Below, piece by piece: positions 1,324 through 46,191 of a stretch of 47,978 nt of DNA. Source of the DNA: an uncultured Collinsella sp. GTDB lineage: Bacteria > Actinomycetota > Coriobacteriia > Coriobacteriales > Coriobacteriaceae. Position 1 is the stretch's first letter. Every line of letters begins with the position of its first letter. The position numbers and the translations under genes are program-made. Below the pieces are notes generated by a model, which saw only the letters and a program-made list of their open reading frames with translations, did no database searches and was not told where the DNA came from. The stretch lies in the NCBI GenBank assembly GCA_944321445.1, contig CALULJ010000012.1, positions 1 to 47,978 on the forward strand, given 5' to 3'.

Positions 1324-4300
1324 ATGGGTCGTTTTGGTAGGAAAAACCTAGCGGGAGGGGGCGCTTCTAAGCTCGTTGCCCGTTGCCTTGCGCTTGCGCT
1401 TTTCACGTTAGCGTGCGTTCCCAGCGCGGCATGGGCGGCGTTGGAAGACCACACCGTATCGGGCGTGTCTCCCCAGGGGACCACTATCAATCTGTTCGAT
1501 TATTGGACGGACGCACAGAATAGCCCCGACAATGGCGACGTGGCGGACTATCAAAAGATTGGCATCAACAAGGACCATGCGCTCAAGTTTGGTATGGGCA
1601 TGGGCGGAGATTCGAGCGAAACTACAAACGCCAGCAATCTTAATAAGTGGACGCAGAGCGCGCGTCCGCGCTTCGGTATCGTCGCGGATACGCTTGGCGC
1701 CGACGGTTACCCGCTGCTGAACAACGGTAACGTAGGCAGCAGCCAGTCGCTCGCATACCTTTTCGATGCAACGCCTCTTGAAGGGAAGCAGGCGTATCTG
1801 GGTACTCAGGGTCTGTTGCAGATCGACAAAGCGGGCTACTACTATTACAACAGCCAGGTGAATTTCGCTGAATTCAAGAGCCAGAGCAACGCGTTCACGC
1901 TCTACGACACGTGGGGCGTTATGGCTGGCGGCGCTTCGCCTAACGGGCAGTTCTTCCCGTTTAACACGGCGAGCCAGGTGCTGAAAGAGCAAGGCGATAA
2001 GCTTGTCCAGACGACCCTTAATTCCAAGAACAAGGTTATCAACCATTATTTCGGCATGACCATGTCGACGCGCTTCGTGCAGCGCTGGAGTGGCCACACG
2101 GACGAGACTAAAAAGACGGCGGTCACCTACAACTTCTCGGGCGATGACGACGTTTGGATTTTCATCGATGATGTGCTTGTGGCGGACCTCGGCGGCATTC
2201 ACGATAAATCGTCGGTAGAGATCAACTTCGCCACGGGCCGTGTTGTTGTGTACAGAGATGCCAACAACAACAATGTGTTTGATTCGGGTACGGATACGGA
2301 GTATGCGAATAAAACGCTCAAGGAGATTTTTACTGCCGTTGGCAAAGAGACGGGTTTCATGGGTGATACCTTTGTAGACAACAGCTATCACACGCTGAAC
2401 TTTTTCTATTTGGAGCGCGGCAATACCGACTCCAACATGTCGCTTAAGTACAACCTTGTGACCACGCCCGAAACCGACATTCAAAAGATCGACCAGACGG
2501 GTACGGCGCTTTCCGGCGTAACCTTCCGGGTGTACGACTACACCGACGACAATCAGGGTGACCTTATCTGCGAGGTCACAACGGACATCAACGGCTCGGT
2601 GGTGCTGACCGACAACACGGGATTTCCTATCACGCTCGAGGAGCTTTATGACAGCAAGAATGTGAGGAAGCTGAAGCTCGTTGAAAGCAATCCCAAACCG
2701 GGATATCGCGATTCGGGCGATATCATCCTTGACCTCCAAAAGAAGGTAGGGCCTGCGGGAAAGCTTGAGTCGACCGTGGCTACGAGTAGCAACTACTGGG
2801 AGACCGGCGTCTATGCACTCCCCAAGGTGCTTACAAGCGCGGCGGACAATGTTAAGGTGGATGGCAAGGCGCTCACGGACGAACAGATCGAGAGTGGCAC
2901 GATGTTTGTCGTGATCGAAAAGAAGGTCGGTGACGAGTGGCGCCCTGTGTACGGTGACCCCATCAACGGCTGGACTGTGCTGGCTGGTGACTCGGAGGAG
3001 AATATCCTTGAAGCGGCGAAGAGCACCGCATCGGTGTTCCGCCTGGCTTCGTCGGGCGCCTACGAGACGACGATCGACGACCTTCCCGGTGACATTCTCG
3101 ACTACGTCTTTTTCGACGGTGAGAATGACAGCGATGGTGACGGCCAGCTTTACCGTGGCGTGTACTACTACACCGAAGCGGGAAGCCTGGATGATGCCAA
3201 TGCTGAGAACACGTTGGTGATCGACAATTCCAATGAGTTCGCACGCCAGTTCTCGGTGCGCCTCTACATCCCGAACATTATGAATCGCTTCATCGTTCAG
3301 AAGCTCAGCCCCGAGGGCGAGCCTTTGGACGGCGCCACCTTTGCGCTTTACGACGAGAACTCTGCCGTTCAGGTCGATGGCGAGTGGGTGCTGGGCAGCA
3401 ATCCCACGATGGTTGGCGAGCCTAAGGAGACTCGCACACTCCATCGCAATCCGGATCAGATCGACCTCGAAGGTGCGGCGATTTTTGACAAGCTTAAGCC
3501 GGGCCTGTACTGGCTCCATGAGGAGTCGGCGCCTAAGGGGTATCTCACCAACACGGCACTCACCAAGATTATCGTTAACGACTCCGGCGTCTATGCCGAC
3601 GCGGGCGTTGAGGGCGACGGCATCGAGGTTTCGCGCGGCGTGGGCCGTCTGGTGAAATCGATGCGCCAGTTTGCCGTGAACAATCAGGTGGATTCGTCCC
3701 TGCATGACATTACGGCGATGCCGTACTTGGCTAAAAGCGTAAACGCTACCACTATTACGTGGAACGAAGAGGCCGCTGCCGAAAAGCCGCTGTCTCTTCA
3801 CTTCAGTGACAAGACAGATACCGTGCTCGATTACGTGGCCGACGCAGGCTCCGAGCAGTACTACACCACCGACACGGGTGTGGCCACGCTCAAAATATTG
3901 CAGAACTATAATTTCACCCATGGTGAGGGCTACAAGCAGGATCTGGGTGACAAGGATCTTAGCAACCTGTACACCGGTGTGACCCTGGTTCGCGTGACCG
4001 ACGCACGGATTGAGAACGCCAAGCACGCCTATGATGCAGATAATCCGACCGCCATCATCGATGGTCAGTTGGTGGGCGTGGGCAGCAAGATCATCTATAA
4101 GGTGACCTGGATTAACGATGCGGTTGATGAGGATGGAAACCCGGCCCCGGCCACAGTCAAGGTGACGGATAAGATTCCTGACGGCACGGAATACGTTGAC
4201 GACAGCGTAAGCAACGAGGGCAAGTACGACCCTGAGACCAAAACCATTACCTGGGATCTGAGCGTGCAGGAGCCCTATGCCACGGGTGAGGTGTGCTTTA

Positions 4301-7300
4301 CCGTTAAGGTGATCGATGATGCGGTTAACCATGATACGGTAAAGAATCAGGCAACTATTTATCTCGGTGAGGATGATCCTGGTCATACGACCAACGTGGT
4401 GGAGAATCCCGTTCCCGAGAAGGACGTTTTCAAGCCGAGCGACCCCGGTGTGAGTATCGACGGCAAGAAGGTAAGCGTGGGCGATGAGCTGCTGTACAAG
4501 GTGACCTTCACGCTTACCGAAGATGCCGACAAGGTGGTCGTGACCGACACCGTTCCCGCCGGCACGGAGTATGTTGATAACTCCGCCACTTACGATGGCA
4601 TCGAGACCAATAGGCTTATCACCTGGACGTTTGAGAACAAGAAAAAGGGCGACAAGATCGAGGTTTCCTTCACGGTAAAGGTGACTGAGGACGCGGTGAA
4701 CCTCGATTCCGTCAACAACACCGCCGCCATCCAGCTGGGGGAGAACGGCCCGGAAATCCAGACCAACACGACGCACAACGAGGTGACCGGCGAACTGACC
4801 ATTTCCAAAACGGTCAAGCTTGCGGGCAGCCAGGATGGGGTAACCGATAATTCTCAAAAGTTTGAGTTCACAATCGATGTGACCGATGCCGCCGGCAACC
4901 CTCTTACGGGTACGTACACGGCTTCCGGCGGTGAGAACATTACGAGCCTGACCTTTGATCAGGGGTCTGCACGGTTCTCATTGGCGGGCGGTCAGTCGCT
5001 TACCATTACGGGCCTTCCTGCGGGTGCGAAGTACACGGTGAAGGAAACCCCGGTCGTGGGCTATAAGCAGGTTGAACCCGCAGGCGGCGAACCTGCTGAA
5101 GGAACGATTCCGGCCACTGGTTCCGCAACTGCTGCGTTCACCAATATCTACGATGTCCGGGAGGTCGACTACGATGCAATGGTTGGCCTGCAAATCAAGA
5201 AGAACCTTACGGGCCACGACATCGTGGGCAACATGTTCGCGTTCACGCTGACGCCGATCAACAAGAATGCTCGGGCCAAGCTGAAGGCCCCTGTGACGGT
5301 GAACACCTCGGGCGCCAATATGTCGATCGAGGGTGAAAATGCCGGCGTGGCCAGCGAAAGCGTGCCCATGGACATCGGCCTGACGTTCACCGGTGACGAT
5401 GCGGGCAAGACCTTTACCTTCGAGGTTTTCGAGGCTCAGGGCAGCGATGTCGGCTATACGTACGACGATTGTAAGTACAGCCTGGAGATCAAGGTGACAG
5501 ACGAGTCTGGTGTCCTGACGGTTAAAACCTACGTAGACGGTGACCTTAAGAGCACGGTTACCGCGACGCATGAAACAAAAGCCGCCGAACCCGTGACGCT
5601 TGAGTTCAACAATTCGTACAGCGCGGGCACCGCGAGCATCGATCTCAAGGCCACGAAGACGCTGTATAACAACGACATGACGGCGGGACAGTTCATCTTC
5701 CAGGTAACGGACGCCAAGGGCAATAAGGTTGCTGAGGGCACGAACACGTCTGCCGCAGACGGCAAGCCTGGCGAGGTGACGTTCGATCAGATTTCCTACA
5801 CCACCGCTGACCTCAATGATGCTGTCGCCGATGGCTCCGCCAGCATCAGCCGCGGGGACGATGGTTCTACGGTTTACACCTTCGTCTATACCGTGTCCGA
5901 GGTGGCGCCAACGCAGCCTGGCATGACGCCGATTACCGGTTCCTTCTCCGTTACGGTTAAGGTGACCGACAATGGTGCGGGCGCGCTGTCCACCGAGGTT
6001 ATCTACCCTGAAGATTCCAACGGAACACTGGCCTTTAAAAACAAGTACGGCACGGATGACGAGGCGAGCATCACCCTCAACGGCCAGAAGAACTATGTGA
6101 CTGATGGGGCGACCGCGGCGCCGAACATCGTGGGCAAGTACACCTTCAAGGTCACCGGTACCTTTGATGATGGGAAGCCGCTGCCCAATGAGCTCATGCC
6201 TCGAACGAAGGAAGTTGTCCTCGACGAGTCGATGGGAATCGATTTCGGTACGATCACCTACACCATCGAAAACGTCTTTGGCGCGCAGAGCGGTTCTGGT
6301 GAAGATGCCGACGAAGGTGCTGACGCCCAGGCTGTGGCGCAGAAGCGCACCAAGGTGCTTGTCTACACCATTACCGAATCCGGCGAGGTCGAAGGCGTGA
6401 CCAACGACCTCAAGGCCTCGAAGACCGTCACGGTCACGGTGACCGATAACGGCGATGGCACCATCACTGCTACGAAGAGCACTGATGGCGAACTTCATGA
6501 CTTTGACTTCGTGTTTACCAACACCGCGGATCCCGATCCCGAGCCAGAGCTCGGAAATCTGGTTATTTCCAAGCAAGTGCAGGATGTCAACGGAGACCCG
6601 GTAACTTCTGACACGACGGACTTCACCTTCACGGTCAAGTTGACCGATGAATCTGGCGAGCCCGTGACGGGCACCTATGCCGCATCGGGTGTCGACGGCA
6701 TTAACGAGCTGATCTTCGACGATGAGGGCGAAGCGACCGTTAAGTTGAGCCACGGCGAGAAGCTTACCGTCCAGGGTCTGCCTGCAGGTGCGAAGTACAC
6801 GGTGACCGAGACTTCGGTTTCTGGCTATACGCAGGTCAAACCCGAGAATAATGCTTCCGACGCCGGCACTATCAAGGCCGATGAGGATGCGGTTGCCGCG
6901 TTCGTGAATCGCGTGACGCCTGTCACCGAGCCCGATCCGGATCCGACCTCGGTCGAGCTCGGCGGCTCCAAGGTGCTCAAGAACGGCGAGCTCCGCAAGG
7001 GTGCCTTCACCTTCCAGCTGCTTGACGCCAACGGCGAGGTTATCCAGGAAGTGACCAACGCCGCGGACGGTACGTTCGTCTTCGACAAGATCAAGTACAC
7101 CGAAGCGGGTATCTACACCTACACGATTGTCGAGGTTGTGCCCGCGGACGACGACCCCGCTACCGATGGTATCCAGCATGACGGCATAACGTACGACACG
7201 ACCGAATACACCGTTAGGGTCGTTGTCCGCGACGTCAACAACGACGGTGCGCTCGAGGTCGTGAGGGTGACCTACAACGGTAAGGTTGAGGAGCCCGTGT

Positions 7301-7641
7301 TCACCAACGTGCTGACGCCCGGCCCCGGAGGCCCTGGCGATCCCGAGGACCCCGAGGATCCGACCGATCCGGAGGATCCCGAAGACCCCGATGAGCCGAC
7401 CGATCCCGAAGACCCCGGCGACCCGGATGATCCCGGCGAGCCCAGCGACCCGGGTGAGCCGAGCGACCCCGGCGAGCCGAGCGACCCCGGCGAGCCGGGA
7501 GAGCCTGCCGAGCCCGGTGAGCCCGGCGATGGCGTCCCGCAGACGGGGGACAGCACTCTGTTCGCGGTGGTCGCCGCTGTCGCGGCCGGCGTCGTGCTCC
7601 TTGCGGCCGGCCTCGCCTCCAAGCTTCGCGTGCGCCGCTAA
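1324..7641 (+). CDS. Giant wall-anchored adhesin/pilin-like protein (fibro-slime, SpaA-like and FctA-like domains, VPQTG anchor)
   Basis: 2105 residues. The ATG at 1324 is chosen because AAAGGGG (1311-1317) precedes it and a signal peptide follows (basic MGRFGRKN, hydrophobic core, cleavage near AWA at 36-39). Residues ~48-375 resemble a fibro-slime domain (FSGDDDVWIFIDDVLVADLGG at ~271, TLNFFYLERG near the end). SpaA/Cna-B-like segments start at ~383 and ~657, and DUF11-like repeats (KVTDKIPDGTEYVDDS, VVTDTVPAGTEYVDNS) at ~906 and ~1038. Isopeptide-type pilin domains of the FctA/Spy0128 kind start near 1288, 1436, 1581 and 1877, with related TISKTVK/VISKQVQ domains near 1156 and 1744. An acidic Pro-rich spacer (~1999-2069, DPEDP and GEPSDP repeats) leads to VPQTG (2071-2075), one membrane helix and an RVRR tail, a sortase sorting signal with V for L. 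Base use is AT-richer than its neighbours. The likely role is host or surface attachment; the ligand is unknown. Confidence 0.9.
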   Translation: MGRFGRKNLAGGGASKLVARCLALALFTLACVPSAAWAALEDHTVSGVSPQGTTINLFDYWTDAQNSPDNGDVADYQKIGINKDHALKFGMGMGGDSSETTNASNLNKWTQSARPRFGIVADTLGADGYPLLNNGNVGSSQSLAYLFDATPLEGKQAYLGTQGLLQIDKAGYYYYNSQVNFAEFKSQSNAFTLYDTWGVMAGGASPNGQFFPFNTASQVLKEQGDKLVQTTLNSKNKVINHYFGMTMSTRFVQRWSGHTDETKKTAVTYNFSGDDDVWIFIDDVLVADLGGIHDKSSVEINFATGRVVVYRDANNNNVFDSGTDTEYANKTLKEIFTAVGKETGFMGDTFVDNSYHTLNFFYLERGNTDSNMSLKYNLVTTPETDIQKIDQTGTALSGVTFRVYDYTDDNQGDLICEVTTDINGSVVLTDNTGFPITLEELYDSKNVRKLKLVESNPKPGYRDSGDIILDLQKKVGPAGKLESTVATSSNYWETGVYALPKVLTSAADNVKVDGKALTDEQIESGTMFVVIEKKVGDEWRPVYGDPINGWTVLAGDSEENILEAAKSTASVFRLASSGAYETTIDDLPGDILDYVFFDGENDSDGDGQLYRGVYYYTEAGSLDDANAENTLVIDNSNEFARQFSVRLYIPNIMNRFIVQKLSPEGEPLDGATFALYDENSAVQVDGEWVLGSNPTMVGEPKETRTLHRNPDQIDLEGAAIFDKLKPGLYWLHEESAPKGYLTNTALTKIIVNDSGVYADAGVEGDGIEVSRGVGRLVKSMRQFAVNNQVDSSLHDITAMPYLAKSVNATTITWNEEAAAEKPLSLHFSDKTDTVLDYVADAGSEQYYTTDTGVATLKILQNYNFTHGEGYKQDLGDKDLSNLYTGVTLVRVTDARIENAKHAYDADNPTAIIDGQLVGVGSKIIYKVTWINDAVDEDGNPAPATVKVTDKIPDGTEYVDDSVSNEGKYDPETKTITWDLSVQEPYATGEVCFTVKVIDDAVNHDTVKNQATIYLGEDDPGHTTNVVENPVPEKDVFKPSDPGVSIDGKKVSVGDELLYKVTFTLTEDADKVVVTDTVPAGTEYVDNSATYDGIETNRLITWTFENKKKGDKIEVSFTVKVTEDAVNLDSVNNTAAIQLGENGPEIQTNTTHNEVTGELTISKTVKLAGSQDGVTDNSQKFEFTIDVTDAAGNPLTGTYTASGGENITSLTFDQGSARFSLAGGQSLTITGLPAGAKYTVKETPVVGYKQVEPAGGEPAEGTIPATGSATAAFTNIYDVREVDYDAMVGLQIKKNLTGHDIVGNMFAFTLTPINKNARAKLKAPVTVNTSGANMSIEGENAGVASESVPMDIGLTFTGDDAGKTFTFEVFEAQGSDVGYTYDDCKYSLEIKVTDESGVLTVKTYVDGDLKSTVTATHETKAAEPVTLEFNNSYSAGTASIDLKATKTLYNNDMTAGQFIFQVTDAKGNKVAEGTNTSAADGKPGEVTFDQISYTTADLNDAVADGSASISRGDDGSTVYTFVYTVSEVAPTQPGMTPITGSFSVTVKVTDNGAGALSTEVIYPEDSNGTLAFKNKYGTDDEASITLNGQKNYVTDGATAAPNIVGKYTFKVTGTFDDGKPLPNELMPRTKEVVLDESMGIDFGTITYTIENVFGAQSGSGEDADEGADAQAVAQKRTKVLVYTITESGEVEGVTNDLKASKTVTVTVTDNGDGTITATKSTDGELHDFDFVFTNTADPDPEPELGNLVISKQVQDVNGDPVTSDTTDFTFTVKLTDESGEPVTGTYAASGVDGINELIFDDEGEATVKLSHGEKLTVQGLPAGAKYTVTETSVSGYTQVKPENNASDAGTIKADEDAVAAFVNRVTPVTEPDPDPTSVELGGSKVLKNGELRKGAFTFQLLDANGEVIQEVTNAADGTFVFDKIKYTEAGIYTYTIVEVVPADDDPATDGIQHDGITYDTTEYTVRVVVRDVNNDGALEVVRVTYNGKVEEPVFTNVLTPGPGGPGDPEDPEDPTDPEDPEDPDEPTDPEDPGDPDDPGEPSDPGEPSDPGEPSDPGEPGEPAEPGEPGDGVPQTGDSTLFAVVAAVAAGVVLLAAGLASKLRVRR

Positions 7642-9451: not shown

Positions 9452-9810
9452 CGACGCACTTCTCCCCAGGGGAGAAGTGCGTCGCCGGGAGAAGCCCGTT
9501 TCACGGATGTATACAGCCAGCTTGTCTCCGCAGGATATCGTTCGAAAAATGTATAAAGATTAGGCGCCGGTGGTCGGAGCAGCTGTAACAACGGATGTTC
9601 GGGACGAAATTTCGGTGTCCTTCGTCCATATGGCGGATACCCGCTAGCAAAACCCCAGTTGTTTCCTGCGACGTTTCCAAGGGATGTCGCCCGTACGGGC
9701 GGAGGAGACCTAAATTTCGTCCCGAACTTCCTCCAAAGGGCTATACATCCGATTTTGGGCTCGAAGCCGCCCCGTGGCGACGCACTTCTCCCCAGGGGAG
9801 AAGTGCGTCG
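9452..9810. repeat. ~360-bp nested inverted-repeat element bounded by two identical 33-bp palindromes
   Basis: Two identical 33-base palindromes (9452-9484 and 9778-9810; CGACGCACTTCTCCCC, A, then its reverse complement) bracket inner complementary arms. These are CGGATGTATA at 9504-9513 with TATACATCCG at 9742-9751, and GTTCGGGACGAAATTT at 9597-9612 with its perfect complement at 9712-9727. No ORF of note lies inside. It occupies most of the 9349-9979 gap between the divergent pyridoxamine kinase and carA genes; the remainder holds the carA promoter region. Confidence 0.85.
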
Positions 9811-17337: not shown

Positions 17338-17423
17338 AACCCCCTGCAAACTTTGGGGAAACCCACACCTGGAGGCGCAACCGGGCATCCGGGTGTGGGT
17401 TTCCCCAAAGTCTGCAGGGGGTT
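17338..17423. repeat. 32-bp inverted repeat between convergent sortase and regulator genes
   Basis: Arms 17338-17369 and 17392-17423 are complementary in 31 of 32 positions, with a 22-base loop. The arms contain CTTTGGGGAAACCCACACC and its complement. Lying between convergent genes, it may end both transcripts, although no T-run adjoins it. Confidence 0.85.
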
Positions 17424-23049: not shown

Positions 23050-23457
23050 ATGGCACAGAGCATGCCTTCCATTGATGCCTGGCTCGCCGAGGCCAAGGCC
23101 GACCCCAGCTTCCGCGCGTGCGGCATGTACCTCGTCCACAACGGGACCGTCCGCGAGACGCCCAAGGCCGAGGTCCGCGGCATCGAGACCGACGGCGTGC
23201 AGCCCGGCAGCAAGGTCGGCAGCATGGTGTTTTCCTACGATCGCGCGAAGGTCGACGCCGCCGTCGACGAGGCGCGCCGCCTTCCCGGCATCGGCTACGT
23301 GCGCGTATGGCTCAACGAGGGCGAACTTTCTGTGGGCGACGACATCATGCTCGTGCTTATCGGCGGCGACATCCGTCCGCGCGTCATCGATGCCCTGCAG
23401 CAGCTGGTTGGCACCATCAAAAACAAGTGCGTTTCCGAGGTCGAGCGCCCCGCGTAG
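23050..23457 (+). CDS. Small MoaE-like protein (molybdopterin synthase large-subunit fold)
   Basis: 135 residues; ATG 23050 with AAGGAG six bases upstream. Similarity to MoaE is seen in HNGTVRETPKAEVRG near residue 30, YVRVWLNEGELSVGDDIMLVLIGGDIRPRVIDALQQ and the closing IKNKCVSEVE. Residues that in MoaE form the acidic/basic active site are only partly matched: the usual lysine-rich PIWK-type motif is absent, although Lys residues occur in TIKNKC. No moaD, moaA, moaB or moaC is adjacent. It may be a diverged, possibly non-catalytic MoaE paralogue, or a stand-alone member of a MoaE-like family. Two large inverted repeats follow its stop codon. Confidence 0.6.
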   Translation: MAQSMPSIDAWLAEAKADPSFRACGMYLVHNGTVRETPKAEVRGIETDGVQPGSKVGSMVFSYDRAKVDAAVDEARRLPGIGYVRVWLNEGELSVGDDIMLVLIGGDIRPRVIDALQQLVGTIKNKCVSEVERPA

Positions 23458-23470
23458 CCCCAGCGCGCAC

Positions 23471-23654
23471 CGTTTCCCCAGGATTAACTTCTTACGAAGC
23501 GTTTGTGTATGGGTTTTCGGCCGCCCTCGAAGTAGACGCTCAAACAGGCATCCTTCCGACCTGCGCTTTTGTCGGCCAGACTCGTCGGGCTACTCGGGCA
23601 AAGCGCAAAAACCCATACACAACCGCTTCGCCAGACGTTAATCCTGGGGAAACG
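23471..23654. repeat. Long-stem repeat element R1 (90-nt loop with AGTAG/CTACT)
   Basis: Outer arms of 18 bases (23471-23488 and 23637-23654, CGTTTCCCCAGGATTAAC) are perfect. They run into a further 29-base stem (23489-23517 and 23608-23636) with four mismatches, containing GTGTATGGGTTTT. The 90-base loop (23518-23607) carries AGTAGAC 13 bases from its start and CTACT 13 bases from its end. Member of a four-copy family in this window (R1-R4). Confidence 0.85.
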
Positions 23655-23715
23655 CTGGCAGCCAGCGCCGATCGAGCGCCGCCATCTCCGTCCGAGTGGC
23701 AAAATCCAGGGACTT

Positions 23716-23890
23716 TGTGGCGCATAACGTCTTGCGAAGACCTCGTGTGCAGGTTTTTGAGGCCCGCCCGAGTAGACACGCTATAGTGCGCAGATAAAAT
23801 GCCTGGTCGGCGATGTATCGGCTTAGACGTCTACTTTTGAGGTGGCGAAAAACATGCACACGAGGTCTTCGCAAGACGTTATGCGCCACA
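23716..23890. repeat. Long-stem repeat element R2 (89-nt loop with AGTAG/CTACT)
   Basis: Arms 23716-23758 and 23848-23890 are complementary in 42 of 43 positions and contain CGAAGACCTCGTGTGCA. The 89-base loop (23759-23847) carries AGTAGAC 12 bases from its start and CTACT 12 bases from its end. R1 and R2 lie in tandem, 61 bases apart, and together fill the 476-base gap between the convergent MoaE-like and PF06541 genes. Confidence 0.88.
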
Positions 23891-23933
23891 AGCCTGCCGG
23901 GTTTCAGCCCCCAAACAGCCCAAATCTTGCCAT

Positions 23934-25241
23934 CTACGCCTTCGGCGCCAGCACCTCCGCGTTCGCATTGCCAGAATCAATACGACCGGAGTTATCGGGA
24001 TGGATCGTCATGCTCTGGAACCGATGCTCCATATACTGGTTGTCGAAGTTCTTCGCGTAAAACTCCTCGACCGGCGAGCTGGGCGCAATATCGCTCACCC
24101 GCTCGAACCAGCAGTCCAGCGCTTGCAGCGTCATAACCGCATTTACCAGCATCAACACAGCGCAGAGCGTCGTGAACGAGTAGCATGCCTTCCAGGGAAT
24201 CAGGTTGATGAGCCCAAGCAGACGCGGCAGCAGCACCTTGATCCATACGAGCCCCAGCACGCCCCAGATTCCGGCGAACATCGTCGACGTGCGCCCGTCG
24301 CACAGCGCAGCGATAGGGTCGGGAATCACGCCGAACAGCATCGACCCCGTATAATCCCAGGCCACGGCACCAAACGCGGTCTGCATGAACCAGCTCACGG
24401 CGTACTCGAACGCCCCGCCGATCACCGCACTCACCAAAAAGATAATCACGACGTTCTTCCTATAAAACCGGTTGAGCGCCACGGTCATAAGCACCGCGCC
24501 CACGCCATAGATGGGGGAGAAGGGCCCGAACAGCAGCCCCGCGCGATCCTGGTACACGCCTGGGTCGACGACGGTCATATGCCAAATGACCTCGAGCACG
24601 AGTCCCAGCACGCTGCACACCATGAACACCCAGAACAGATTGAAGAAATTGAGCTTGATATAGCCCTCGCCGGTCTCGTCGCGCCCGAGCATGCCCTCCT
24701 CGGCCGCCTCACGCTCCTGCATGCTGCGCAGGCGCGCCTGCAGGTCGCGCTCTTCGCGCAGCGTCGGGTCGATGGTGACCGAAATCACCAGCAAAATCAC
24801 GAGCTGGATGGCGGGCTGGATGAGCTGCCCGCCGATGCCGTTGAGCATCACGGCGATGACCATCTGCGCAATCGTGATGGCAATGAGGACTTCCGACCAT
24901 ATGGCTGCGTTGCGCCGGCGGTTTTTGAGCAGCGAATAGCCGAAGCGAATGAGCAGCACCGACGCCACGAGTGAAAGCAGCACGTTGATAACGGTGACGA
25001 CGATGGTGAGCGTCGGGTCGCTCGCGACGCTCAGGTGCTCGGGCGACCTCACCACGACCAGCGCGACCACGGCGATGAGCATCACGATGAGTGGCAGCAT
25101 GATGATGCCGTCGGCCATGCACAAGATGCCGTACACCTTCAGGTAGCGGGGGATCTTCTTCTGCTCATCGGTGCTGGGGCTCAGAGGGTCCAACTGATTG
25201 GACATGCCGCCGCGCACGGCGGCACGTTTCGATGCGCTCAC
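23934..25241 (-). CDS. Putative ABC-transporter permease-type membrane protein (PF06541 family)
   Basis: 435 residues. GTG 25241 is taken as start because AAGGAG lies seven bases upstream; an ATG at 25205 (MSNQLDPL) has no ribosome site. After a short polar N-terminus there are about four helices (YGILCMADGIIMLPLIVMLI and so on), then a charged loop (LREERDLQARLRSMQEREAAEEG). The C-terminal domain resembles the PF06541 'putative ABC transporter permease' family: FFNLFWVFMVCSVLGLVLEV, DRAGLLFGPFSPIYGVGAVL, IGGAFEYAVSWFMQ, AWDYTGSMLFGVIPDPIAALCDGRTSTMFAGIWG. No ATPase or binding protein is adjacent, so a transport role is a family label only. It is monocistronic. Confidence 0.7.
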   Translation of the reverse strand: MSASKRAAVRGGMSNQLDPLSPSTDEQKKIPRYLKVYGILCMADGIIMLPLIVMLIAVVALVVVRSPEHLSVASDPTLTIVVTVINVLLSLVASVLLIRFGYSLLKNRRRNAAIWSEVLIAITIAQMVIAVMLNGIGGQLIQPAIQLVILLVISVTIDPTLREERDLQARLRSMQEREAAEEGMLGRDETGEGYIKLNFFNLFWVFMVCSVLGLVLEVIWHMTVVDPGVYQDRAGLLFGPFSPIYGVGAVLMTVALNRFYRKNVVIIFLVSAVIGGAFEYAVSWFMQTAFGAVAWDYTGSMLFGVIPDPIAALCDGRTSTMFAGIWGVLGLVWIKVLLPRLLGLINLIPWKACYSFTTLCAVLMLVNAVMTLQALDCWFERVSDIAPSSPVEEFYAKNFDNQYMEHRFQSMTIHPDNSGRIDSGNANAEVLAPKA

Positions 25242-27294: not shown

Positions 27295-27360
27295 TGGGAA
27301 AAAGGGGACAGGCACTTATTTCCCACCGGTGGGAAATAAGTGCCTGTCCCCTTTTTCCCA
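27295..27360. repeat. Perfect 66-bp palindrome, copy 1
   Basis: Left half 27295-27327 and right half 27328-27360 are perfect reverse complements with no spacer, centred on CCCACCGGTGGG. Each half includes GGGGACAGGCACTTATTTCC or its complement, and the right half ends in CCCCTTTTTCCCA. It lies between purF and purM. As RNA it would form a hairpin followed by T-rich sequence and could act as a terminator on either strand. A near-identical copy is at 34010-34075. Confidence 0.92.
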
Positions 27361-27467
27361 CGCCCCCGTCCCCGGTGATTTCACGCGATACAGCCGGCCC
27401 TGTCCTCATCGGTACGGTCGGCTGGTATCATCTTGAGCAGGTAGGACCTCCTTTCGAAAGGATGCGC

Positions 27468-33981: not shown

Positions 33982-34009
33982 TCGCTGACTGAGTGCTCCA
34001 CCTGCGGGT

Positions 34010-34075
34010 GGGAAAATGGGGACAGGCACTTATTTCCCACCGGTGGGAAATAAGTGCCTGTCCCCTTTTTCCCAA
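34010..34075. repeat. 66-bp palindrome, copy 2 (one mismatch)
   Basis: Halves 34010-34042 and 34043-34075 match the 27295-27360 palindrome, differing by one base in the left arm (AAAATGGGG for AAAAAGGGG). It lies upstream of upp and ends in CCCCTTTTTCCC on the plus strand. Confidence 0.92.
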
Positions 34076-43313: not shown

Positions 43314-44477
43314 ATGAAGAAGAAGCCCGTTCAGGAATCCAGGCGCCCCAGCACCGGCGCTGCGAGCCGAATCTACAGCCGCGAGAATGTGAGCCGCTAC
43401 TCCGAGCGTGCGCGCCAGCGCCGCCGCGGTCACGCTATCCGTCGCGGCATCCTCATCGGCGTCATTGCGCTGTTCGTGTGCGTGGGCACCGCCGCGGGCT
43501 CGTGGATCTCGCAGGTCATGGGCCGCATCAATAACGGCGAGATCATCACGAGCGACCTGCTGACCACGCTGCTCGACACCAACGTGACGCAGGAGCCGTT
43601 CTACATGCTTCTCCTGGGCACCGACGGCCGCCCGGGCGAGGATTCCTATCGCGCCGACTCCATCGTGCTGGCTCGCATCGACGCGCCCGAAAAGGAAGTC
43701 ACGCTCATTTCCATCCCGCGCGATACCAAGATCGAGTACGACGGGAAGACCATCAAGATCAACGCGGCGCATGCCTACGACGGCGCCGAGGGTATGGTCG
43801 AGGCGGTCAACGAGCTGTGTGACGTCGAGATCTCCCACTACGCCGAGATCAACTTCGAGGGCATGCAGGCGCTTGTCGACGCCCTGGGCGGTGTCGAGGT
43901 CAACGTGCCCGATCGCATCGACGACCCCAAAGCTGCCGACTTCGTGATCGAGCCGGGCCTGCAGGTACTCAACGGCGAGCAGGCGCTCGCGTTCTGCCGC
44001 TCGCGCGCCTACGTCGATGGTGACTACACCCGCATGCGTCACCAGCGCATCTTTCTAGCGGCGCTCGCCAACACCATCCTGAACAAGATGGACGTCGGCT
44101 CGCTGCCCGGAATCATCAACTCGCTGTCCAACATGGTCGTGACCGACCTTGGCATCCAGGACATCATCAACCTGGTGAACGCCATGCGCGGCATGGATAC
44201 CGACAACATTTGGACGGCCAACCTGCCTTCGTGGGCGGGTGACGACACCTGGATTGGTGGCCAGAGCTACGTCTTCGTCGACGAGGAAGAGCTCGAGAAG
44301 ATGATGGACCGTGTGAAGGCCGGCGAGGATCCCAAGGGTCCGCAGACCATGGGCGATACCGGCGGCACCTCCACGACCACTGGCGACCTCTCCAACAACG
44401 AGGCCTCCGACTGGGCATACGGCACCGCAACCACGAGTGGGTCAAGCTCGAGCTCCGACGAGGACTCCGAGGAATAG
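43314..44477 (+). CDS. LytR-CpsA-Psr family cell-wall ligase
   Basis: Membrane-bound enzyme that attaches undecaprenyl-linked glycopolymers to peptidoglycan. 387 residues. A basic cytoplasmic N-terminus (RERARQRRRGH-like) precedes one membrane helix (45-64), then the LCP domain. Its motifs are FYMLLLGTDGRPGEDSYRADSIVLARIDA, VTLISIPRDTKIEYDG, INAAHAYDGAEGMVEAVNELCDVEI, GGVEVNVP, LNGEQALAFCRSRAY and DYTRMRHQRIFL, which supply the conserved Arg and Asp residues that bind the polyprenyl phosphate. The tail is a Ser/Thr/acidic low-complexity stretch. It lies 12 bases after murA, so the two wall genes are probably one unit. Confidence 0.94.
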   Translation: MKKKPVQESRRPSTGAASRIYSRENVSRYSERARQRRRGHAIRRGILIGVIALFVCVGTAAGSWISQVMGRINNGEIITSDLLTTLLDTNVTQEPFYMLLLGTDGRPGEDSYRADSIVLARIDAPEKEVTLISIPRDTKIEYDGKTIKINAAHAYDGAEGMVEAVNELCDVEISHYAEINFEGMQALVDALGGVEVNVPDRIDDPKAADFVIEPGLQVLNGEQALAFCRSRAYVDGDYTRMRHQRIFLAALANTILNKMDVGSLPGIINSLSNMVVTDLGIQDIINLVNAMRGMDTDNIWTANLPSWAGDDTWIGGQSYVFVDEEELEKMMDRVKAGEDPKGPQTMGDTGGTSTTTGDLSNNEASDWAYGTATTSGSSSSSDEDSEE

Positions 44478-44498
44478 CCCGCACTGCAAGGAATACTG

Positions 44499-44559
44499 CG
44501 AGCAGGGGCCGCCGGCATGTGCCGGCGGCCCCTGCTCGTACCGGGCAACGCCCGGTTTT
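44499..44559 (+). terminator. Tandem hairpin terminator after the LCP gene
   Basis: A perfect ~18-bp stem (44499-44517 with 44520-44538, CGAGCAGGGGCCGCCGGC) is followed directly by ACCGGGC-AAC-GCCCGGT (44540-44556) and TTT. The second hairpin is a standard intrinsic terminator; the first is an unusually long companion. Confidence 0.85.
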
Positions 44560-44586
44560 CTGGGCCTTGCTGCACACAACGATTTA

Positions 44587-44723
44587 CGAAGACCCCGTGT
44601 GCACGTTTTCAGCGTCCATCCAAGTAGACCTTCGAAGCGACAAACACGCTACCTGCGGTTCTGTAGAGCGGCTGGCGCCGCACTACTCACAGCGTGCCCA
44701 AAAACGTGCACACGAGGTCTTCG
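44587..44723. repeat. Long-stem repeat element R3 (90-nt loop with AGTAG/CTACT)
   Basis: Arms 44587-44609 and 44701-44723 are complementary in 22 of 23 positions and contain GTGTGCACGTTTT. The 90-base loop (44610-44699) has AGTAGAC 13 bases from its start and CTACT 12 bases from its end. Stem sequence resembles R2. Confidence 0.85.
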
Positions 44724-44770
44724 TTTTATATTGCGTTACCCCGGTCAGACGCCGCGCAATATAAATCGAA

Positions 44771-44897
44771 GCAGTTGTGTATGGCTTTTCAGCGGTATCC
44801 AAAGTAGACGCCAAACCTCCAATCGATTTACCAGGCATTTCTTTGATTCAGAGAGCCACGCTACTTCGGGAATCCGCTCAAACCCATACACAACTGC
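44771..44897. repeat. Long-stem repeat element R4 (90-nt loop with AGTAG/CTACT)
   Basis: Arms 44771-44789 and 44880-44897 pair in 17 of 18 positions (GCAGTTGTGTATGG). The 90-base loop (44790-44879) has AGTAGAC 13 bases from its start and CTACT 14 bases from its end. Stem sequence resembles R1. R3 and R4 lie in tandem in the 44478-44988 gap between convergent genes; the last 90 bases of that gap hold nothing recognised. Confidence 0.82.
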
Positions 44898-44988
44898 TCC
44901 GTAAAACGTTATGCATCTCGGCTGAGGATAAAGAATTCAGCTTTTTGGGCCATTCTACCCGAAACAAGTGGGCCCTATTTGCCCCCAT

Positions 44989-46191
44989 TTAGCCGAGGCG
45001 CAGCGCTTTGAGCAGCGGTCGGCGCGTCAGTGCATCGAAGGCAAGGAGCACGACGATCACAATAAGGCTTGCAATTACGCCCGCGCCAAGCAGCATGCCG
45101 GCTGCAAGCGTGAGGTTCTCGTTCGCGGCGACACCGGTGGCAATGCGGGCAAACAGACCGTCAATCGCTCCGCGCCAGACCGTATAGAACATCGACTGCA
45201 AGATATAAAACCCCAAAATACCCGAGGCGGCGCCGCGAATCAACGCATGGCTGCGCGGCGAAGCATCCGTCTCATGTTGCGGCCGCTTTGAAAACGCGGC
45301 CGCAAGCAACGAGAGCGCGGCCAGTGCGAGCGACAGGGCAGACGTCGATTTAAACGACAGGGCAACGATCGCATTGGTCGCACCGGCAAACGCAAGAACC
45401 TCTTCGAGGCCCACGACGGCAACGCAAGCGCACGCCAGCGCAGCTGCCCAGGAAACGTTCGGCCGCTTCGCGGCCGAACGCACCTCACCAATCAAACCGC
45501 CGCAGGCGTACGCCGCAACGTAGCTCACAGCGCTCATGAGCTTGCGCCATTCCAGCAGCCCACGCTCTGCCTCGCCGGGCGACACAAACGCGATGTACGC
45601 ATTGACCAGGTATACAGCGGCAATAATCAAGCAAACGAGCAAGCCTCGGCGCGGGCAGCGCTCCCACATCCAACCCATAACGGGCGTCACGACCATGACG
45701 GCAAGATACACCCAAATAAATTCAAGTCCACCAAGCAGCCAAGCCGTTTCGCGTACAGAAATGCCAGGCATGGGCGTCACCAGGTAGCTCACTGCAAGAG
45801 CGAGCGCGGCATACAGCGCGACCGAGATTCCGATCACCGCGGCGCGCCGTCCTGCCTTGCGAAGCTGTGCACCCCAATACCCATCGCCGCGCGATGCACG
45901 GGCGCATCCGGGCAGCAAAAAAAACCCCGAGATCATAAAGAAGACGCAGTTGCCATAGGCACCCAGCAGGTTGATGAAGCCCAGTGCGCCCGATGCAACC
46001 GGGCAGCTCGCCATGATGGCGCCGATGTCGCCGCCGCGCGCGGCAGCCAAAGCCGCCGCCGCGTCCCCGGCGGCCATCCAGGCCATGGCCTGCGCAAACA
46101 CAGGCTGGAAGGTGTGGAACACCGCGATGGCGACGATGGCGGCAAGCCGCAGCGCCTCTATGCGCACGTTGCGCGCGGGCTTTTGAACCAT
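44989..46191 (-). CDS. Membrane acyltransferase (acyltransferase family 3)
   Basis: 400 residues with about ten membrane helices. ATG 46191 is chosen for the strong GGAGGTGA five bases upstream; the frame is open slightly further. The N-terminus NVRIEALRLAAIVAIAVFHTF matches the family opening, with conserved Arg and the His26 thought to be catalytic. Then come YGNCVFFMISGFFLLPG, WLLGGLEFIWVYLAVMVVTPVMGWMW and a C-terminal helix set. Family 3 enzymes O-acetylate or succinylate wall glycans, exopolysaccharides or lipids. The wall genes murA and LCP lie opposite, which makes a surface-glycan substrate plausible but unproven. pepT lies 43 bases upstream on the same strand. Confidence 0.82.
   Translation of the reverse strand: MVQKPARNVRIEALRLAAIVAIAVFHTFQPVFAQAMAWMAAGDAAAALAAARGGDIGAIMASCPVASGALGFINLLGAYGNCVFFMISGFFLLPGCARASRGDGYWGAQLRKAGRRAAVIGISVALYAALALAVSYLVTPMPGISVRETAWLLGGLEFIWVYLAVMVVTPVMGWMWERCPRRGLLVCLIIAAVYLVNAYIAFVSPGEAERGLLEWRKLMSAVSYVAAYACGGLIGEVRSAAKRPNVSWAAALACACVAVVGLEEVLAFAGATNAIVALSFKSTSALSLALAALSLLAAAFSKRPQHETDASPRSHALIRGAASGILGFYILQSMFYTVWRGAIDGLFARIATGVAANENLTLAAGMLLGAGVIASLIVIVVLLAFDALTRRPLLKALRLG

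Follow-up and report, generated by a model that had tools for sequence, protein, structure and literature searches.

The stretch of DNA analysed here (the window; 47,978 nucleotides of an uncultured Collinsella sp.) is contig C12 of a 2.36 Mb assembly comprising 84 contigs. It harbors two pairs of long palindromic elements, R1-R2 and R3-R4, with the following features at the two loci:

23050-23457, plus strand: predicted MoaE gene, left of R1-R2
23495-23630, plus strand: element R1, type B
23735-23871, minus strand: element R2, type A; core in minus orientation, palindrome extending to 23715-23891
23934-25241, minus strand: putative ABC-type IV transporter gene, right of R1-R2
43314-44477, plus strand: predicted LytR-CpsA-Psr-family gene, left of R3-R4
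44587-44723, plus strand: element R3, type A, 137 bases; GTGT..ACAC span 44597-44713; model positions 1-136
44623-44629, plus strand: inner box AGTAGAC of R3, with its mate CTACT at 44683-44687
44650-44662, plus strand: central core of R3, TACCTGCGGTTCT, at the dyad centre
44725-44765, no strand: facing outer arms of R3 (TTTATATTGCG, 44725-44735) and R4 (CGCAATATAAA, 44755-44765), read from the sequence
44767-44901, plus strand: element R4, type B, 135 bases; GTGT..ACAC span 44777-44891
44803-44809, plus strand: inner box AGTAGAC of R4, with its mate CTACT at 44861-44865
44830-44839: core variant of R4, ACCAGGCATT
44989-46191, minus strand: predicted acyltransferase gene, right of R3-R4

R3 and R4 are imperfect palindromes separated by approximately 44 bases. 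The initial annotation had described them as a second tandem pair, 20.7 kb away from R1 and R2, and positions, folding and the genome-wide family showed that both pairs are real. The predicted folds of R1 to R4 were 4.5 to 8.3 standard deviations below those of 200 dinucleotide shuffles on either strand, and 0 of 200 shuffles was equally stable. Since shuffles were never as stable and a query with R3-R4 recovered the family genome-wide, the four elements are not chance palindromes. The stem sequence is GTGTATGG in R1 and R4 (type B) and GTGTGCA in R2 and R3 (type A); hence, stem types alternate as previously described and each locus holds one element of either type in opposite order, i.e. B,A followed by A,B. 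The GTGT-to-ACAC spans of R1 to R4 measure 116, 117, 117 and 115 bases. Also the proposed common geometry of the inner boxes was found, with AGTAGAC at 44623 and 44803 and CTACT at 44683 and 44861. The “90-base loops” assigned to the elements kept their geometry, but they are no open loops: each is the inside of a longer palindrome whose centre is fixed. Between the two elements, the facing outer arms TTTATATTGCG of R3 and CGCAATATAAA of R4 pair with each other, rather than each with its own far arm. Finally, both loci had been placed between genes pointing at each other, and predicted convergent gene pairs indeed flank R1-R2 and R3-R4.

The window contains additional repeats. Near-identical palindromes at 27295-27361 and 34008-34074 (GGGGACAGGCACTTATTTCCCACC...) resemble REP/REPIN repeats of a different family. 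Nested inverted repeats are present at 9452-9810, with 35-base arms CGACGCACTTCTCCCCAGGGGAGAAGTGCGTCG at each end and a second palindrome (9593-9731) within. A 39-base inverted repeat, 92% complementary and with an 8-base loop, is located directly past a gene end (17338-17423), and a very long open frame of approximately 2067 codons with internal repeats (family D4; 1441-7641) probably encodes a surface protein.

Anatomy of the element family and conservation of its arms

A BLAST query with R3-R4 and a subsequent arm search detected 22 elements at 16 loci of this genome, 11 of type A and 11 of type B, confirming the element family and showing that it is larger than initially annotated. Three candidate rows (two on C23 near 14,600 and one on C72 near 1,459) were excluded from the 22, because they lie within coding sequence and do not follow the plan of the element. 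A covariance model built from the 22 (model R1) recovered all of them at scores of at least 94.8 bits over the full model length, while three extra matches at 19.7-31.2 bits were left out of the count. The GTGT-to-ACAC span is 115-117 bases in 22/22 elements. A genome-wide table of both stem types had been suggested as a check; it lists one A and one B element at six of the 16 loci and a single element at the other ten, with 11/16 loci convergent.

The plan of each element is strictly palindromic: outer arms are followed at a distance of 12-13 bases by the boxes AGTAGAC/GTCTACT, and the core TACCTGCGGTTT occupies the symmetry centre. In the alignment of the 22 elements, left arm, AGTAGAC, GTCTACT and right arm are in one register (columns i and 138-i). 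The core deviates by no more than 0.5 base from the dyad centre in 40 of 42 scored elements, three of 45 elements having been set aside for a weak core match. Its ACC-TGC-GGT is able to close as a tip, and the subsequent TTT gives the element a direction. Element C39 carries an extra inner palindrome around its own core, which looks as if one side had been copied from the other. At loci L067-L070 of genome G001, further copies of the arm motif TTGTACCAGTTT flank the elements on both sides, some of them 20-30 bases out, generating a nested double palindrome.

Within type A and within type B, identity amounts to 89-91% for the arms, 90-100% for the AGTAG/CTACT boxes and 70-74% for the core. The four spacer blocks are 30-45% identical, which is near the level of unrelated DNA, and they differ equally within and between types; despite this divergence, element length is held to within a base or two. 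The combination of nearly random spacers, arms of about 90% identity and fixed length indicates that arms and boxes are kept in place. The best-matching pair of copies in this genome shares merely 73% identity. The copies are old with arms and boxes kept, which is at odds with a heap of decaying transposon copies. Moreover, arms vary on both sides together. Among 28 elements from 12 genomes, 228 double-change cells were counted, involving 25 of 29 pairs; 94.4% of the arm cells were paired, a value reached by 0/500 shuffles, and sliding the register by 1-3 positions left 37-45%.

Strong predicted folds and positions at gene ends would be compatible with an RNA element, either a bidirectional terminator or a structured non-coding RNA, but several results speak against this improbable alternative. 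Arm mismatches in three sets were G-U in 7, 8 and 15 cases versus A-C in 9, 7 and 16 cases. There is no excess of G-U and therefore the palindrome looks maintained as DNA, although this comparison is blind if both strands serve as RNA. No T-tract terminator, i.e. a GC hairpin followed by a run of T, was found in the region around R3-R4 (44300-45200). Reading of the sequence assigns the gene upstream of R3 its own GC hairpin (44500-44537), ahead of R3, and such a hairpin is likewise present in two element-free relatives; the initial suggestion of bidirectional transcription-end elements gains no support from these results. In addition, Rfam at the gathering cut-off detected tRNA and no other family in the window and in sets of 12 and 19 loci (Collinsella-1, RF01700, is assumed to be among the families searched and was not matched at gathering score), and a low-threshold search of R3-R4 and ten loci gave no convincing weak match.

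Pairing, gene context and turnover of the elements

All six close pairs in this genome consist of one A and one B element, with start-to-start spacings of 147-240 bases and varying orientation of the core within pairs. Among 15 close-pair rows from several genomes (gap ≤150; L209 and L211 probably represent the same locus from two MAGs, and L358 has a weakly called second member), 14 had arms that fitted their own partner arm better than those of the neighbouring element. The margin was merely 1-2 of 16 positions in three of these 14 unlike-arm rows, which involve related arm types, and the fifteenth row contains an ET30 element whose two arms belong to different types. Close neighbours of unlike arm type are the rule; one same-type pair, with a gap of 388, was seen in G001. 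Initially, the recurrence of mixed pairs had been taken to suggest a functional unit of two hairpins or a pairwise mode of spread. The mixed composition stands, in this genome as in the 14 of 15 rows, but 10/16 loci carry single elements, neither spacing nor core orientation is constant, and convergent gaps are no commoner among pairs than among singles (3/6 versus 8/10). A two-hairpin functional unit is therefore not needed, and we consider it unlikely that A and B act together, the small margin in the three rows with related arm types being a further point against it. If same-type pairs were lost through deletion between their repeated arms, the identical pattern would be left, and this explains mixed pairs equally well. 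We favour such deletion over a required pairing, which is the less likely cause, because identical arms at a distance of 150-250 bases are deletion-prone; nearby identical repeats are generally prone to loss through slippage.

The 16 loci of this genome comprise 11 convergent, five codirectional and no divergent gene gaps, as judged with a purpose-made simple gene caller (one element, on C80, overlaps a predicted gene by 104 bases). Among all neighbouring gene pairs in the same stretches, the 16 element loci included, 23/116 are convergent and 25 divergent. In other genomes, 42 placeable loci (two overlapping a predicted gene, with seven more at an edge uncounted) were convergent in 14, codirectional in 22 and divergent in six cases, as compared to 23/169 convergent among element-free pairs. 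Hence, the proposed preference for convergent gaps applies to this genome and is weaker elsewhere.

Occupancy of individual sites differs between relatives. The orthologous gene gap in G012 and G016 lacks R3-R4; it is short and still contains a GC hairpin. At 30 loci of the R3-R4 neighbour gene, element matches were obtained at the window's own locus only, whereby absence rests on the model search for about half of these loci (minus orientation) and the other neighbour gene differs in many. A conserved placement at the gap between K+ transporter and nitroreductase genes was rejected: 36 genomes have the gene, 30 were scanned as loci, and the element was present in one of the 30 (G000) in addition to G032, which was seen separately. 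Placement at this gap is therefore not general in the genus.

Between the C. tanakaei strains ET30 and ET10, which are colinear at 80-86%, one gap differs in having two elements in ET30 versus none in ET10, and another in having two versus one. In two gaps both strains have an element, albeit with different arms (GTTTAGGGGACGG in ET30, GTTTACGGTTCGG in ET10), which could be due to replacement or independent insertion. ET30 also has recent near-copies of the element, 91% alike, at separate sites. At L121 of ET30 (2380-3110), compared with L176, two palindromes separate the halves of a REPIN-like repeat, the ET10 counterpart of which is compact, and repeats of the GGTTGGGGACGTGTTC type are abundant nearby. 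The C. aerofaciens-like genomes (a label used here for G006, G018, G023, G442 and close relatives) provided a well-aligned presence/absence site of approximately 510 bases, which exceeds the length of the element and might reflect a deletion. Neither the ET30/ET10 gaps nor this site provided a clean empty site revealing a target site duplication. An 8.4 kb segment between two elements in G006, G018 and G023 was considered as a transposon, but its content is a series of ordinary conserved genes. Recurrent neighbour genes were also dismissed as partners, since most recurrences traced back to the same locus or genome (nine proteins from six loci in the largest cluster). Scanned neighbour genes are ordinary, and no gene for a binding protein or for mobilisation was found among them.

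Species-specific locations with empty gaps in relatives, the filled versus empty and pair versus single gaps of ET30 and ET10, the near-copies in ET30 and the lack of occupied divergent gaps in this genome would also be expected of a purely selfish, MITE/REPIN-like miniature mobile element. In this case, a transposase would recognize the arms in trans, the elements would have no role for the host, and the bias for gene ends would reflect survival where promoters are unbroken. We regard this as possible, though on the doubtful side. Dead copies should decay evenly, yet spacers are near random while arms remain about 90% alike. Furthermore, no autonomous element with A/B ends was detected in this genome (R3-R4 query; assembly 97% complete), where A/B ends occur essentially only as element pairs. 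PF01797 (Y1_Tnp), the domain of RAYT-type transposases, has two matches in the window's genome and none in G001, G005, G025, G031 and G032, all of which have element matches; RAYT as sole mobiliser was therefore rejected.

Distribution, related systems and interpretation

Model R1 matched in 39 of 58 relatives, mostly of the same genus. Of the matched elements, 24 were inspected by eye; they have arms unrelated to A or B (e.g. TTGTACCAGTTTT, GTTTAGGGGACGGTTTT, GTTCTGCCGCAGTTTT) along with unchanged boxes and core, the inner box being GAGCAC instead in G006, G018 and G023. Run over 396 genomes from across the phylum, a further model (model R2) gave at least 17, every one of them from family f1 or f5; strict filters and eight candidates scored per genome make this a lower bound. 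A loop-only pattern, which carries no arm information, was run over 84,980 species genomes and yielded 46 matches in 43 stretches, whose record titles place every one of them in Coriobacteriia (Collinsella, Enorma, Coriobacteriaceae, Candidatus Olsenella and Candidatus Limicola). Inverted arms scoring at least 11 enclose 45 of the 46 matches and the remaining one scores 7, the random 99% point being 8. Phage and plasmid records contained no family match. In viral contigs the type B pattern had 0 matches, and a single match of the loop pattern, in AT-rich DNA without outer arms, was taken as chance. A literature search, which was thin on subscription papers, returned no description of this palindrome family in the accessible parts of the sources, PMC3733652, PMC8040213, PMC13155455 and PMC2864571 included.

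The core word ACCTGCGGTTT occurs 30 times in 0.68 Mb of examined loci versus 0-3 times (mean 0.4) for 40 permuted words, a count biased by the choice of loci for elements. In 120 genomes from this order, the 12-base core word was found 490 times versus 12 times for its reversed form. Of 75 sampled core sites (71 distinct), 40 lie in an inverted repeat scoring at least 14, as compared to 6/264 random positions, and their arms are often unrelated to those of the window (GGCCCATCTACTACGTTT and AACTATGCCGGTTTACGGGGCT in G442; TTTCGACTTATGCACGATTTTT in G037, which belongs to another family). Approximately half of the sampled sites lack a strong palindrome and some resemble coding sequence; therefore, the core alone is no proof of an element. 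At L043 (G000:C1, around 7617 and 9229), the core word GTGACCTGCGGTTTT forms part of another repeat, whose two copies are spaced by about 1.6 kb, with no strong enclosing palindrome. Speculatively, Coriobacteriales might carry an order-wide system of long palindromes, in which arms switch among many unrelated dialects, several per genome, around a fixed core ACCTGCGGTTTT. The core, exposed at the tip of an extruded cruciform, would be read by a conserved enzyme or chromatin protein, dialect-specific partners would read the arms, and tandem copies would be kept only if of unlike dialect. We hold this broader proposal to be rather unlikely.

Among known systems, the elements resemble REPIN/REP sequences with their RAYTs in having inverted conserved arms around a variable spacer, in their dispersed intergenic location and in their species-specific arm families, of which several exist per genome. 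Unlike REPs, which measure 20-40 bases according to the accessible part of PMC3733652, they have a fixed length of approximately 135-190 bases, contain inner boxes and share a core that occupies the dyad centre. They also differ from REPIN/RAYT systems by their presence in genomes without detected Y1_Tnp. When compared with the GTAG/CGTC tag of REPINs, the AGTAGAC box lies inside, 12-13 bases from the arms and away from the base of the hairpin. Separate REP-like repeats exist in Collinsella genomes as well.

MITEs, including ERIC/RU and Correia-like elements, are short non-coding palindromic elements; the elements described here are likewise gained and lost between species and possess terminal inverted repeats, but decay unevenly, and no partner insertion sequence or target duplication was found. 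YPAL sequences are long palindromes at gene ends of Yersinia, a similar setting in a host of another phylum, and we know of no species-switching arms around a shared core in YPAL. Lineage-specific motifs are shared with DNA uptake sequence dialects and other protein-bound genome signatures, which often form inverted-repeat pairs at the ends of genes. Unlike DNA uptake sequences, the elements number merely 22 copies here and have a long fixed architecture. Variable arms around a fixed asymmetric core resemble structured recombination sites, and the palindrome, folded as a single strand, might then serve as the site of an integron- or recombinase-like system. No gene cassettes, cassette arrangement or integrase neighbour as for integron attC sites were seen in the gene contexts examined, and we consider this reading very unlikely.

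Taken together, the reading we favour, though with slightly less than even confidence, is that R1 to R4 are old, dispersed, REPIN/MITE-like long non-coding DNA palindromes of Coriobacteriales, which would serve as sites for a trans-acting DNA-binding factor. A sequence-specific protein would bind the arm dialect (A or B) together with the boxes in trans, and such binding, on double-stranded or cruciform DNA, would keep arms and boxes conserved. Copies may spread rarely, in a REPIN/MITE-like manner, and would persist mainly at the 3’ ends of genes. Their role there would most probably be that of a DNA roadblock or a nucleoid-organising site, and not RNA termination. Several observations count against this reading. 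No gene for a binding protein or for mobilisation turned up among the scanned neighbours, the bias towards convergent gaps is weaker in other genomes, where six of 42 loci are divergent, and a clean insertion with a target duplication was not seen. In addition, moving copies should often share spacers, and the best pair in this genome is just 73% alike.

Common gut bacteria (Collinsella, Enorma and Olsenella-like) appear to possess a family of repeats that follows a clear code, composed of fixed geometry, a conserved core and fast-changing arms. This palindrome code accounts for a class of long palindromes in these genomes and is a direct handle on finding the protein that reads it. With spacers near random and arms and boxes conserved, the family provides a clean test case for distinguishing a living cis-element from a decaying mobile one.
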